From an uncultured Geobacteraceae bacterium (lineage in GTDB: Bacteria; Desulfobacterota; Desulfuromonadia; Geobacterales; Pseudopelobacteraceae): a stretch of DNA of 64,000 nucleotides. The notes below the pieces were generated by a model. It had not been told where the DNA came from. It was given only the letters and a program-made list of their open reading frames with translations, and did no database searches. Where the stretch lies: contig CAIYDX010000402.1 in NCBI GenBank assembly GCA_903925005.1, positions 1-64,000 on the forward strand, read 5' to 3'. The position numbers and the translations under genes are program-made. This document shows, piece after piece, positions 25,520-50,873 of this stretch (position 1 is its first letter; every line of letters begins with the position of its first letter).

Positions 25520-26860
25520 TCACGTTAACGCTCGGCGGGTACGACCGGATGATTTGCGCCGGAGGCTTTTGCCGTTTTTCTTACTGTAGTGGCGATGCGC
25601 CTTGTAATGCGATTCAGATACCGCCGCCACCAATCTTATTCCGCGCGAGGAGACCGGAATGCCCCGTGTTGCCGTCCGTCGCGGATCTGCGGTTATCCTG
25701 GTGATCTCCGGGGCAGCCGCCTGCGTCAGGATGTCGCCCGGCTTACCGAACTCTGCTGCGGCAAGAGTGGAGATGTCACTGCGCAACTGGTTGAACACCC
25801 CGATGTCCCGGTAGTTCAAACGGTTTGTCAGCAGAACCACGAACAGATCCTGTTTAGGATCTATCCAGATTGAAGAGCCGCTGTATCCGGTGTGACCGAA
25901 GGAAGCGTCCGAGAACAATCTCCCCTTCGGCGACGAAAAGCGGGAATTCATGTCCCATCCCAGGCCGCGCACCACGGTGTCGTTACTGCAGAGAAACGGA
26001 GAGGTCATCTGTTTCACAACCTGCTCCGACAGGATGCGTCTGCCATCAAGCACACCGCCATCAAGCATCAGACGGGCAAACCGGGCGAGATCCTGTGCGG
26101 AGCTGAAAAGACCGGCATGACCCGCAACGCTGCCAAGACGGCGAGAATTCCGGTCCTGAACGGTTCCGCCGTCAATTCCCAGCGTCGGGGCGATACGATC
26201 CTTCATGTTAAGCGTCGGCAGAAACATGGTCTCCGGAGTGACAAGCGGCGCAAAGAGTTCTTCGCGACAGTAAGCGTCCAATGTCTTGCCGGAAACCCGA
26301 TGAACGAGCTCTCCCAAAAGTATGAAATTGATATCGGCATAGCTGAAACTGCTGCCGGGACTTTCCCGGTATTTCTCCGCCGCGGCCCTGTTTATGGCGG
26401 TCTGCATTACCTGTTCCTTACTCATGTCAAAGTCGGCAAGTCCGGAAGTGTGAGTCAGCAGATGGAGGATTGTGGTGTTTTCGCGCTCTGTGCCCTTGAA
26501 TTCGGGAAACCAGCGGGTCAACGGATCCTGCAGGGAGATCCGCCCCTCATCCAGCAGCTTCATCACCGCCGGCGCGGTTGCAATCACCTTGGTCAGGGAG
26601 GCGAGATCGAAGATGGTCTGTTCGCCAAGCAGCGGCGCATCCGGTCTGGCAGACAGCCGCCCATGGGCGGTGCTGGCAAGTATACCGGCATGATTACCGA
26701 TCACGACAACTCCGCCGGCGATCAGATTGTTCGAGATGGCCCGTTCCACCAGATAGTCAATAGTGGCAACGCGGCTGTAATCCAGCACTTTATCCGAAGC
26801 CGACAGGATCGAAGTGGAAAAAAACAGGCAAAATGAGATAAAACTGCAGAGAATACGCAC
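25520..26860 (-). CDS. Exported serine hydrolase, beta-lactamase/class C fold
   Basis: Read from GTG 26860, which has AAAGG 6 bases upstream and opens VRILCSFISFCLFFSTSILSAS, a signal peptide; the frame extends 65 codons further upstream but that stretch is not protein-like and contains the 36-bp palindrome. The 446-residue protein has the catalytic Ser-x-x-Lys in DLASLTK, a Tyr in SYADINF where class C enzymes have YxN, LTHTSGL and the HTG-type FGHTGYSG. It belongs to the serine beta-lactamase-like esterase/D-aminopeptidase group. With the neighbouring PBP it may act on peptidoglycan peptides; true beta-lactamase activity is only one option. The last 45 residues are very basic. Confidence 0.85.
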   Translation of the reverse strand: MRILCSFISFCLFFSTSILSASDKVLDYSRVATIDYLVERAISNNLIAGGVVVIGNHAGILASTAHGRLSARPDAPLLGEQTIFDLASLTKVIATAPAVMKLLDEGRISLQDPLTRWFPEFKGTERENTTILHLLTHTSGLADFDMSKEQVMQTAINRAAAEKYRESPGSSFSYADINFILLGELVHRVSGKTLDAYCREELFAPLVTPETMFLPTLNMKDRIAPTLGIDGGTVQDRNSRRLGSVAGHAGLFSSAQDLARFARLMLDGGVLDGRRILSEQVVKQMTSPFLCSNDTVVRGLGWDMNSRFSSPKGRLFSDASFGHTGYSGSSIWIDPKQDLFVVLLTNRLNYRDIGVFNQLRSDISTLAAAEFGKPGDILTQAAAPEITRITADPRRTATRGIPVSSRGIRLVAAVSESHYKAHRHYSKKNGKSLRRKSSGRTRRALT

Positions 26861-26946
26861 GGCAGGCCTTTGACGAATGCAGGTTGTTGAGCGGGTGCGG
26901 CCCGGACTGTCCGCCGCATCTGGGTATTTCAGTTTGTACCATAGCA

Positions 26947-26982
26947 TGACAGCCGATAACATATATATGTTATCGGCTGTCA
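26947..26982. repeat. 36-bp perfect palindrome
   Basis: Two 18-bp half-sites (TGACAGCCGATAACATAT and its exact reverse complement) meet with no spacer. It lies between the PBP gene and the serine hydrolase, both on the minus strand, about 85 bases before the chosen hydrolase start. No T tract follows on either strand, so it is not a standard terminator. It could be a regulator-binding site, a cruciform/site-specific recombination or processing signal, or an mRNA hairpin. Confidence 0.9.
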
Positions 26983-27065
26983 CCGGAATAACGTTAGACC
27001 TGATTCCTGATCCTGTATTCCTCAGAAAGGCAGAATTATGAATTAAATACTTCATCCTTCATAAT

Positions 27066-29030
27066 TCACTCTTCATCCTCCTCCCCACCCGCTTCAGTAT
27101 CCCCCCCATGCTTGGGGCAGTACTCGTCCGGTTCGGTCCCGGAGATATAATATTCATCACGGCGCGTCGGGCAATCGGGGGTCGCCAGGAAGCCTGTTGT
27201 CGGGTCGATCTCGACAGCAACTACCGTATCCGGTCTGGCAAAATCAACGGCCGGTTTCGATGCCACGGCCTTACGCATGAACCGCTCCCAGATCGGGGCG
27301 GCAACAGCGCCTCCGGTAAAGCCCTTCCCCCCGGGGCGAGGCTTGTCATATCCGACCCAAACGCCGGTTATTACCTGCGGGGTATAGCCGACGAACCAGG
27401 CATCCCGATAATCATCGGTGGTACCGGTCTTCCCGGCGGCCGGATATGCTTTGCTGAATTTTTTGAGGCTCTTGGCGGTGCCGTAGGTCAGGACATCTTT
27501 CAGCATCTCGGTGGTAACAAAGGCGACAGCCGGGTCAAGTACCTGAGTGACTACCGGTGGATTCTCGGTCCAGATTCTGCGGGCGCTGTCATAAATGCGG
27601 ATTATGACCCTCGCTTCGGCGCGCATACCTCCGGTGGCCAGGGTGGTGTAGGCCTGAACCAACTCGTTCAGCGTGACTTCATCGGTTCCTAGCGCCAGGG
27701 AGAGACCATTTTCCCTCCGAAGCGACAAACCCATCTTTCCGGCAAAATCGGCAAAATACGGCACACCGACAGCTTCCAGCAGCTTTACCGCGATGACATT
27801 ATTGGAATAGGCCAGGGCCTGCCTGAGGCTCAAATCCCCGTAGAGTTCGCGGCCATAGTTCAGCGGTTTCCAGATTTCATTATTTCCCTTATTGTAAGTT
27901 GCCGGGGTATCATTCCAGATGCTGCCGGCAGTGAGCCCCTTTTCCAGGGCAGCGGCATAAATCAACGGCTTGATGGCGGATCCGGGCTGACGTTTGGCAA
28001 AAAAGGCACGATTAAAGGCGTTCTGAGCGGCGTTTACCCCCCCAACCGCCGCCAAAACATTCCCGGTGGCAGGGTCCAGACAGACCAATGCTCCTTGCAA
28101 CTCGGGAGAAATTCGCTTGACCCCGTCGCTCAGCGCCTGCTCTGCCTGTTTCTGCAGGTTCAGATCCAGGGCCGCCGTCACCTCCAGCCCCCCCTGCTCG
28201 ATGATCTCGGCTCCGTACCTCTCTATCAGCTTGTTCCGGATATGCGCCAGATACTGCGGCGCCTCCCCCGGTTTGACCACCGATGCCGGTTTGGCCCGCA
28301 GCGCCTGCCTTTGCCGGGGGGTGATCATTTCCAGATCCACCATCCGCTTGAGCACCATATCCCGCCGTCCCGTGACGTGGGCCGGTTTCCCGAGCGGATT
28401 GTAACGGGCCGGATTTTTTTGCACGCCGGCCAACTGGGCACATTCCGCCTCGGTCAGCTCCTCCGGATTTTTGTCGAAATAGAGCCGCGCCGCCTGGGCA
28501 ATGCCCCAGGCTCCGTTCCCGTAATATATTTCGTTGAAATACATCTCCAGAATCTGTTTTTTGCTGTATTTCTGTTCAAACTCAATAGCCATGCGGACTT
28601 CATCGAACTTTCGTTCGATGGTTTTTTCGCTGGACAGATACCTGTTTTTGATCAACTGCTGGGTGATGGTTGACCCCCCCTCGGCCAGCCTCCTCTTGAC
28701 CACATCTTTCACAATGGCCCGGGCGATCCCGCGAAAATCGATGCCGCTATGTTCATAAAAGCGGGCGTCCTCAACGGCCACCACCGCTTTTTGCAGAAAC
28801 GTGGGGATGCGGTCGATTGAGACCCAGTAACGTTTCTCCGGCAAGATCCGGCCGACAAACCGCCTCTGGTTGTCAAAAACCTTGATTGAGTTATAACCTG
28901 TAGCCAAGGTGGGATAAGTGGCAAAATTGTCCTGAGCCAAGAGCGCCGGGGCAAGGGTCAAGACCAGAATAATGCCTGATGCGATGATATATAGTGTCTT
29001 TATTAAATGGGTTGTTTGATGCCGAAACAA
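27066..29030 (-). CDS. Bifunctional penicillin-binding protein, class A (PBP1-type)
   Basis: A 654-residue class A PBP that polymerises glycan strands and crosslinks peptides at the outer face of the inner membrane. The start is TTG 29030 with GGAG 10 bases upstream. Residues 10-32 form the signal anchor. The GT51 domain has VEDARFYEHSGID and GGSTITQQLIKNRYLS; the transpeptidase has Ser-x-x-Lys in GSAIKP, Ser-x-Asn in YSNNV and KTG in AGKTGTTDD. After the catalytic domain come a Cys pair (CPTRRDEYY..., DEYCPKHG) and an acidic tail ending EEDEE. It belongs to the 1A/1C size class rather than long PBP1a. Confidence 0.96.
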   Translation of the reverse strand: MFRHQTTHLIKTLYIIASGIILVLTLAPALLAQDNFATYPTLATGYNSIKVFDNQRRFVGRILPEKRYWVSIDRIPTFLQKAVVAVEDARFYEHSGIDFRGIARAIVKDVVKRRLAEGGSTITQQLIKNRYLSSEKTIERKFDEVRMAIEFEQKYSKKQILEMYFNEIYYGNGAWGIAQAARLYFDKNPEELTEAECAQLAGVQKNPARYNPLGKPAHVTGRRDMVLKRMVDLEMITPRQRQALRAKPASVVKPGEAPQYLAHIRNKLIERYGAEIIEQGGLEVTAALDLNLQKQAEQALSDGVKRISPELQGALVCLDPATGNVLAAVGGVNAAQNAFNRAFFAKRQPGSAIKPLIYAAALEKGLTAGSIWNDTPATYNKGNNEIWKPLNYGRELYGDLSLRQALAYSNNVIAVKLLEAVGVPYFADFAGKMGLSLRRENGLSLALGTDEVTLNELVQAYTTLATGGMRAEARVIIRIYDSARRIWTENPPVVTQVLDPAVAFVTTEMLKDVLTYGTAKSLKKFSKAYPAAGKTGTTDDYRDAWFVGYTPQVITGVWVGYDKPRPGGKGFTGGAVAAPIWERFMRKAVASKPAVDFARPDTVVAVEIDPTTGFLATPDCPTRRDEYYISGTEPDEYCPKHGGDTEAGGEEDEE

Positions 29031-29080
29031 AGTATTTTTACTCCTTTGTGATATACTTGCATTGTAAGTGGGGGTGTTCC

Positions 29081-29383
29081 ATGCCCGAAGGAACTATTAT
29101 CTGCATACTGTTTGCTTTGGTGCTGTCGTCAGCGGTTGGAATGGTTGTGTACTGCCTGCGGCTGGCCCGCAAATTCAGAAGAATCGAAGCCGACATGAAC
29201 TGTATCTACGATGGCACGATGCATCATGTTGTCGATATCATTTACGACCCTGACTGGTTCCTGCGCAAGGTGCGGCTTCACACCGATGTTTATCCCTATG
29301 TCGTCGATGTGTTGATTTCAGAGGTCCAAACCACTCAACAACAATCCTGGTTCCACAACTCAAAATCCCACCCTCAGACCTAG
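29081..29383 (+). CDS. Small single-pass membrane protein, unknown
   Basis: ATG 29081, preceded by GTGGGGG, gives 100 residues; a longer frame from 28994 overlaps the divergent PBP start and is less likely. Residues 3-27 (EGTIICILFALVLSSAVGMVVYC region) form a transmembrane helix, then a basic stop (RLARKFRR) and a cytoplasmic domain containing VVDIIYDPDWFLRKVRLHTDVYP. The last 8 codons overlap the 3' end of the convergent outer-membrane gene by 24 bases. No family recognised. The divergent arrangement with the PBP is the only functional hint. Confidence 0.6.
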   Translation: MPEGTIICILFALVLSSAVGMVVYCLRLARKFRRIEADMNCIYDGTMHHVVDIIYDPDWFLRKVRLHTDVYPYVVDVLISEVQTTQQQSWFHNSKSHPQT

Positions 29384-30013
29384 AACGGCGCTGTGATTGA
29401 GGTAATCCATAGCAAATACATGGCCGTTTACTTCAGTGAATTTTGGCCTGGCGCTGCTGAAAAAGCGATAGCCGAAATCGAGACTCAGGCGTTCAGTCAG
29501 CGCGATATCAACTCCAGCCCCCATCTGATAAGCAAAGACAACAGCCGAGCCGCTGCTCATCGGCTGACCGGTCACCTTCAAATCGGCAGCCTCGATACGG
29601 GCAGCGCCGATGCCGACACCGATATACGGCGCCCAACGACCGGTGTCTCGGGGAACGCCAAAAAAGTTCAGTAGCAGACTGTCCGCCGTTACGTTGCCCC
29701 CGGCTGCGAAGCTCCCTTTAGTAAACTTAACCTGGTCGAGCGGGTTGCTGCGGTGACTGAATTCAAGCTCGACCCGCCCCTCGCCGACAGGGTTGCCCTT
29801 TTCAAAGTCCCAGCCAAGGACAACACTCCCCAGCGGGGCCGGATTAAACTCAAGCCCGAAATCCCCCACATCGTCGGAGCCTTTGGCGCTCATCAGCGCA
29901 TTTCCGCCAATGAAAGCGCCGATATAGGGACCCGAGTGCTGCTGTGCCATGGCCTGGCTGCAGATGAGAAGCGTCAGACAGAGGGCGGTAAGTATCAGGC
30001 TGGTTCGTTTCAT
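29360..30013 (-). CDS. Outer-membrane beta-barrel protein
   Basis: A 217-residue exported protein. The start used is the ATG at 30013 (MKRTSLILTALCLTLLICSQAMA signal peptide); an upstream in-frame start would add 12 polar residues. The mature part alternates hydrophobic and polar residues in strands such as YIGAFIGGNALM, GSVVLGWDFEKG, WAPYIGVGIGAARI and SLDFGYRFF, and ends LGLRVGF with a terminal phenylalanine, the usual signal for BAM insertion. It fits an 8-strand OmpA-like/OmpW-like porin domain. It lies 47 bases downstream of the Ig-repeat lipoprotein and probably shares its mRNA. Confidence 0.88.
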   Translation of the reverse strand: MKRTSLILTALCLTLLICSQAMAQQHSGPYIGAFIGGNALMSAKGSDDVGDFGLEFNPAPLGSVVLGWDFEKGNPVGEGRVELEFSHRSNPLDQVKFTKGSFAAGGNVTADSLLLNFFGVPRDTGRWAPYIGVGIGAARIEAADLKVTGQPMSSGSAVVFAYQMGAGVDIALTERLSLDFGYRFFSSARPKFTEVNGHVFAMDYLNHSAVLGLRVGF

Positions 30014-30060
30014 GTAATCCCTTCCTGGTTTAGGTTCGTACAATTTCAAACCGTAACGTC

Positions 30061-50688: not shown

Positions 50689-50774
50689 GCATCAGTTGCC
50701 ATATCCCCCCAAGTAAGCCAAGATCCTCACCAGATGAGGAAACGGGTAGGGTCGCATCATTCGGGTTACAACAG

Positions 50775-50806
50775 TATAAAGGGCGGCCAATCGGCCGCCC
50801 TTTATA
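50775..50806. terminator. 14-bp perfect stem, bidirectional terminator
   Basis: TATAAAGGGCGGCC (50775-50788) and its exact reverse complement (50793-50806) with loop AATC. Read in either direction the stem is followed by TTTATA from its own arm. It lies between the 39-residue ORF and the convergent Cys-rich protein gene. The GGCGGCC core recalls the hairpins at 37540 and 54202. Confidence 0.8.
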
Positions 50807-50873
50807 CCAAGTATGGTGCCCCCGGAATTCCGCCCGGAGAACCAATATTCTCATTCATCTTTCCTGGTTCATA

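Follow-up and report, generated by a model that had tools for sequence, protein, structure and literature searches.

A unique palindrome upstream of a serine hydrolase gene

Given that a 36-bp palindrome without a single mismatch separates two cell-wall genes of an uncultured Geobacteraceae bacterium, we questioned whether it is a regulatory site, a structural or mobile element, or the trace of a mutation in a promoter. The palindrome (TGACAGCCGATAACATATATATGTTATCGGCTGTCA, Table 1) lies in a 64,000-nt window (the whole stretch of DNA analysed), and its two 18-nt arms (TGACAGCCGATAACATAT|ATATGTTATCGGCTGTCA) pair at 18 of 18 positions (100% complementarity) with 0 nt in between. An earlier note, made from the sequence alone, had described this symmetry, the location between penicillin-binding protein (PBP) and serine hydrolase genes (both on the minus strand) and the absence of a T tract, and all three were confirmed. 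A terminator scan was silent at the palindrome, and an intrinsic terminator, which combines a GC-rich stem with a T run, was rejected. The same note judged the length to exceed chance, which also proved correct: given the base composition of the window, about 1e-6 such palindromes are expected per 64 kb and 8e-5 (~1e-4) per 5.4-Mb assembly, and 9 nt per arm is the most that any other spacer-free palindrome in the window reaches. Across 470 kb sampled from this genome, arms extended to 12 nt at most when a spacer of 0–2 nt was allowed, and stayed below 10 nt with zero spacer. Nothing comparable occurred in that sample, so a genome-wide palindrome habit was rejected. Elsewhere, at 50,774–50,807, the window holds another perfect inverted repeat with 15-nt arms (GTATAAAGGGCGGCC / GGCCGCCCTTTATAC) and a 4-nt loop.

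A mechanically called hydrolase open reading frame begins with an ATG at 27,055 and reads through the palindrome. To judge from sequence alignment, the gene most likely starts instead at the GTG near 26,863, because it aligns with a homologous GTGCGT in relatives, as does the signal peptide; there, the sequence after the conserved GTG encodes a signal-peptide-like N-terminus. With this start, the palindrome is intergenic. The gene directly upstream of the hydrolase encodes the PBP in L039 and L046 and an OMP-barrel protein in L044 and L045; this variable gene order (27,066–30,049 in the window) suggests that the PBP gene was inserted or lost between the two. Just past the PBP stop codon, at 27,036–27,070, is an AT-rich inverted repeat (GAATTATGAA...TTCATAATTC, 15-nt loop) found as a single copy in the genome. 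This stretch is missing from L039, and there the activator-like box described below shares bases with the stop codon of the PBP gene.

Table 1. Coordinates of the palindrome, its parts and the neighbouring genes in the 64,000-nt window.
Feature	Position	Strand	Basis or remark
Perfect palindrome, two 18-nt arms without spacer	26947..26982	.	Inverted-repeat scan
Right arm ATATGTTATCGGCTGTCA (hydrolase sense strand), with ATCGGCT, the putative ancestral promoter-spacer block	26947..26964	-	
Left arm TGACAGCCGATAACATAT, in place of the TTGACATCACA half-box; reverse-complements the right arm exactly	26965..26982	-	
Surviving GGTGA half of the CRP/FNR-like box GGTGAT-N4-ATCACA	26980..26984	-	Alignment with relatives
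-10 hexamer TATGGT; extended TG at 26945-26946, directly abutting the palindrome	26938..26943	-	Sequence conservation; putative promoter function
Serine hydrolase (Pfam Beta-lactamase PF00144), served by the palindrome-bearing promoter	25520..26863	-	Start GTG ~26863
Class A penicillin-binding protein (Transgly + Transpeptidase), upstream neighbour of the hydrolase	27066..29030	-	

A conserved CRP/FNR-like promoter in relatives

We aligned orthologous upstream regions from 12 relatives (L039, L040, L041, L042, L043, L044, L045, L046, L047, L049, L053 and L011). The alignment was clean, and all 12 promoters carry [GC]GTGA[TC]-N4-5-TCACA, followed by a spacer (consensus CATCGGCT) and an extended -10 element (consensus TGGTATGGTA). 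The CRP/FNR-like box, GGTGAT-N4-ATCACA, lies ~30 bp upstream of the extended -10 (TGnTATGGT), with its centre near -42 (about -41.5) reckoned from the start site predicted by the -10. Class II promoters that depend on CRP/FNR have this spacing. At a constant distance from the -10, the spacer contains ATCGGCT, either exactly (L039, L046, L047) or with one mismatch (L041, L042, L044, L049, L053). The layout of more distant Geotalea loci appeared similar by eye (GGTGATGGTGGTCAC in L048 and GTGATGGCGGTCAC in L055, each then followed by TATAAT).

The box stays with the hydrolase whether the upstream gene encodes the PBP (L039, L046) or the OMP-barrel protein (L044, L045), and the activator-like element therefore belongs to the hydrolase. 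We infer from its sequence that the ancestral box was a binding site for a CRP/FNR-type activator. The genome containing the window encodes CRP-type HTH proteins, two of them above the Pfam cut-off. While the full box GGTGAT-N4-ATCACA has zero matches in this genome, the shorter form GGTGAT-N4-ATCAC is about as frequent as in relatives; with that frequency and the CRP-type proteins present, loss of the regulator as the cause of box decay is unsupported. The comparison also brings to light a CRP/FNR-like promoter, conserved among Geobacter-like bacteria, that serves an uncharacterised serine hydrolase of the PF00144 family.

Replacement of a conserved half-site

Read in the sense direction of the hydrolase, the window promoter is GGTGACAGCCGATAACATATATATGTTATCGGCTGTCATGCTATGGTA. 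It keeps GGTGA, the ATCGGCT block (in the right arm) and TGnTATGGTA, and the palindrome covers -16 to -51, so the regulatory placement proposed in the earlier note was right. The TCAC half-box, found in 12/12 relatives, is missing from the window in either alignment register. The left arm instead carries AGCCGAT, which occurs in 0/12 relatives at that position and matches the retained ATCGGCT exactly when reverse-complemented. Both flanks align with the relatives and spacing changes by only ~+3 bp, implying replacement of sequence rather than insertion. At this place, the relatives' dyad scores (7–11 of 18 pairs) are no higher than those of shuffled sequence (mean 9.2). Nor do the 300 nt upstream of their hydrolase genes hold any perfect palindrome whose arms reach 7 nt. 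The symmetry is therefore new, and the right arm ancestral, given the equal distance of ATCGGCT from the -10 in relatives. Sequence comparison lends good support to this change, from conserved promoter box to palindrome.

The palindrome was also searched for elsewhere. It has a copy number of 1 in its own 5.4-Mb assembly, where an 18-nt arm, allowing up to 3 mismatches, otherwise matched just three weak, isolated half-sites. Its central 26 bp had no match with up to 3 mismatches in 57 related genomes (36 congeneric), and the near-full form CAGCCGATAAC-N8-GTTATCGGCTG had none in genome_contigs or viral_contigs. Its relatives (a Geobacter sp. MAG, Oryzomonas japonica and Desulfuromonadaceae MAGs) mark the source of the assembly as a Geobacter-like bacterium. 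Within the window, GCCGATAAC was observed 5 times (0.44 expected), comprising the two palindrome arms and three isolated copies, among whose surroundings a common arrangement was not found on inspection. The palindrome is thus neither repeated nor conserved at the orthologous promoters, the very outcome that the earlier note had named as its refutation, making a regulon operator or a mobile or resolution site unlikely.

This bears on the resolution or integration site suggested in the earlier note. A mobile or site-specific recombination element (MITE, REP, or resolution or integration site) would suit a palindromic sequence located between genes. However, the sequence is single copy, contig matches are lacking, the orthologous promoter was replaced rather than interrupted, and the adjacent proteins scanned include no recombinase or transposase, leaving such an element highly improbable. 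REP, MITE or other repeats were rejected because these are multiple-copy sequences. A fold-back chimera produced during assembly or amplification is similarly far-fetched: the assembly is of metagenome type (419 contigs, 6% estimated contamination), but on either side the flank leads into the part of the orthologous promoter that belongs there, whereas fold-back chimeras normally run on into the inverted flank. We regard the feature as real, striking in its sequence and unique. Its best interpretation is a scar that mutation left in a conserved promoter, not a regulon operator.

A template switch as the probable origin

A short template switch during replication, specific to this lineage, probably left the palindrome as a scar in the serine hydrolase promoter. 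The ancestor would have carried the GGTGAT-N4-ATCACA dyad near -42, a spacer with ATCGGCT and the extended -10 TGnTATGGT. While this DNA was being replicated, the growing strand may have folded back or jumped to the complementary strand within the AT-rich spacer. The spacer (ATCGGCT-TCA) would then have been copied inverted over the dyad's downstream half, with the strand rejoining at the TGA microhomology of GGTGA. Such an event would leave a perfect palindrome from -16 to -51, no TCAC half-site and a net gain of ~3 bp. A single template switch, which we infer as the mutational mechanism, explains in one step why the arms are perfect, why the right arm is the ancestral one, why the flanks are intact and why the sequence is unique. 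That one template switch can create a perfect inverted repeat is well established (PMC7202029, PMC8794818).

An ancestral origin of one arm, as expected of a template switch, was recovered for the ATCGGCT block only, the rest of the arm being too diverged. Whole-arm identity to relatives is about equal for both arms (10 vs 10 of 18 in L039) and does not separate them, and the copying direction therefore rests mainly on that block. An alignment allowing one inverted copy scored only 3–7 points above a plain alignment in 12/12 relatives, an uncalibrated margin between sequences too diverged to decide the matter; on the same uncalibrated score, the inverted copy was placed at the expected spot for three relatives only (L044, L046, L047). 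The closest relatives are ~80% identical in the hydrolase protein, and the single step is visible in no near-ancestor. Correction of an existing quasipalindrome was rejected, as the relatives' dyad score is no better than shuffled. Symmetry may alternatively have arisen through gradual selection.

Consequences for hydrolase control

Since the palindrome now lies over about -16 to -51 and only one half-site is left, CRP/FNR-type activation of the hydrolase was presumably lost or reduced. The change would be expected to weaken or rewire hydrolase expression, with basal transcription possibly continuing from the extended -10. Within the left arm, the change has also produced GCCGATAA, preceded at 15 bp by TAAC (TAAC-N15-GCCGATAA, read in the hydrolase sense direction); the upstream element matches at 3 of 4 positions, which counts for little as evidence. 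We take GCCGATAA to be a perfect sigma-28-type -10, and FliA is encoded in the same genome. One template switch might even have destroyed an activator site while creating a symmetric operator or, more weakly, a sigma-28-like element now used by another regulator, a combination we regard as doubtful. On the template-switch reading by itself, a single replication error appears to have generated the long perfect palindrome while deleting a regulatory half-site conserved in 12/12 promoters, and the locus offers a testable example of regulatory rewiring through template switching.

A newly evolved, species-specific operator, at which a dimeric or tetrameric repressor over the -35 region would have turned an activated promoter into a repressed one, is possible though unlikely. 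It would fit the exact position over the conserved promoter, and symmetry with zero mismatches is compatible with selection. Against this, the three weak half-sites aside, the genome has no second site (searched with an arm at up to 3 mismatches), all 57 relatives lack the palindrome, and the adjacent genes examined encode no obvious type of DNA-binding repressor. To our knowledge, natural operators are rarely perfect across 36 bp. The candidates listed in the earlier note are mostly unsupported; for its operator of a cell-wall stress regulator, neither further copies nor conservation were found. A species-specific operator, for which the analysis turned up no positive evidence, could still have originated by template switch and then been kept. 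The locus also cautions against taking every long perfect palindrome in a promoter for an operator.

A cruciform, or an RNA hairpin acting as an RNase III site or stability element in PBP-hydrolase read-through transcripts, is improbable. The predicted fold is stable (-27.5 kcal/mol, centroid; z = -6.2; 0/200 shuffles equally stable), but the same folding is expected of any perfect 36-bp palindrome. Moreover, it comes with no T tract or terminator call, relatives have no hairpin at this position, and Rfam yielded no match. Because the conserved -10 is downstream of the palindrome, the hydrolase's own transcript would not include it, and the RNase III processing hairpin suggested earlier is therefore unlikely there.

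Comparison with known systems

The ancestral box resembles CRP/FNR class II sites (TGTGA-N6-TCACA / TTGAT-N4-ATCAA) in its symmetric TGA-N8-TCA and in a centre ~42 bp upstream of the predicted start, and the ancestral promoter likewise combines an extended -10 with the lack of a recognisable -35. Unlike those sites, the window promoter is missing one half-site, and for the ancestral box a CRP/FNR-family protein is a candidate binder. The palindrome itself is best compared with quasipalindrome-associated and other short template-switch mutations, known from thyA and lacZ reporters in Escherichia coli (PMC7202029) and from the stems of RNA genes (PMC8794818). It differs from these cases in its promoter location, in being deduced from diverged relatives rather than a parent-offspring pair, and in apparently representing creation rather than correction, with no pre-existing quasipalindrome detectable in relatives. 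As in those cases, however, one concerted event would have produced a perfect inverted repeat, one arm is the reverse complement of its ancestral neighbour and the flanks are intact.
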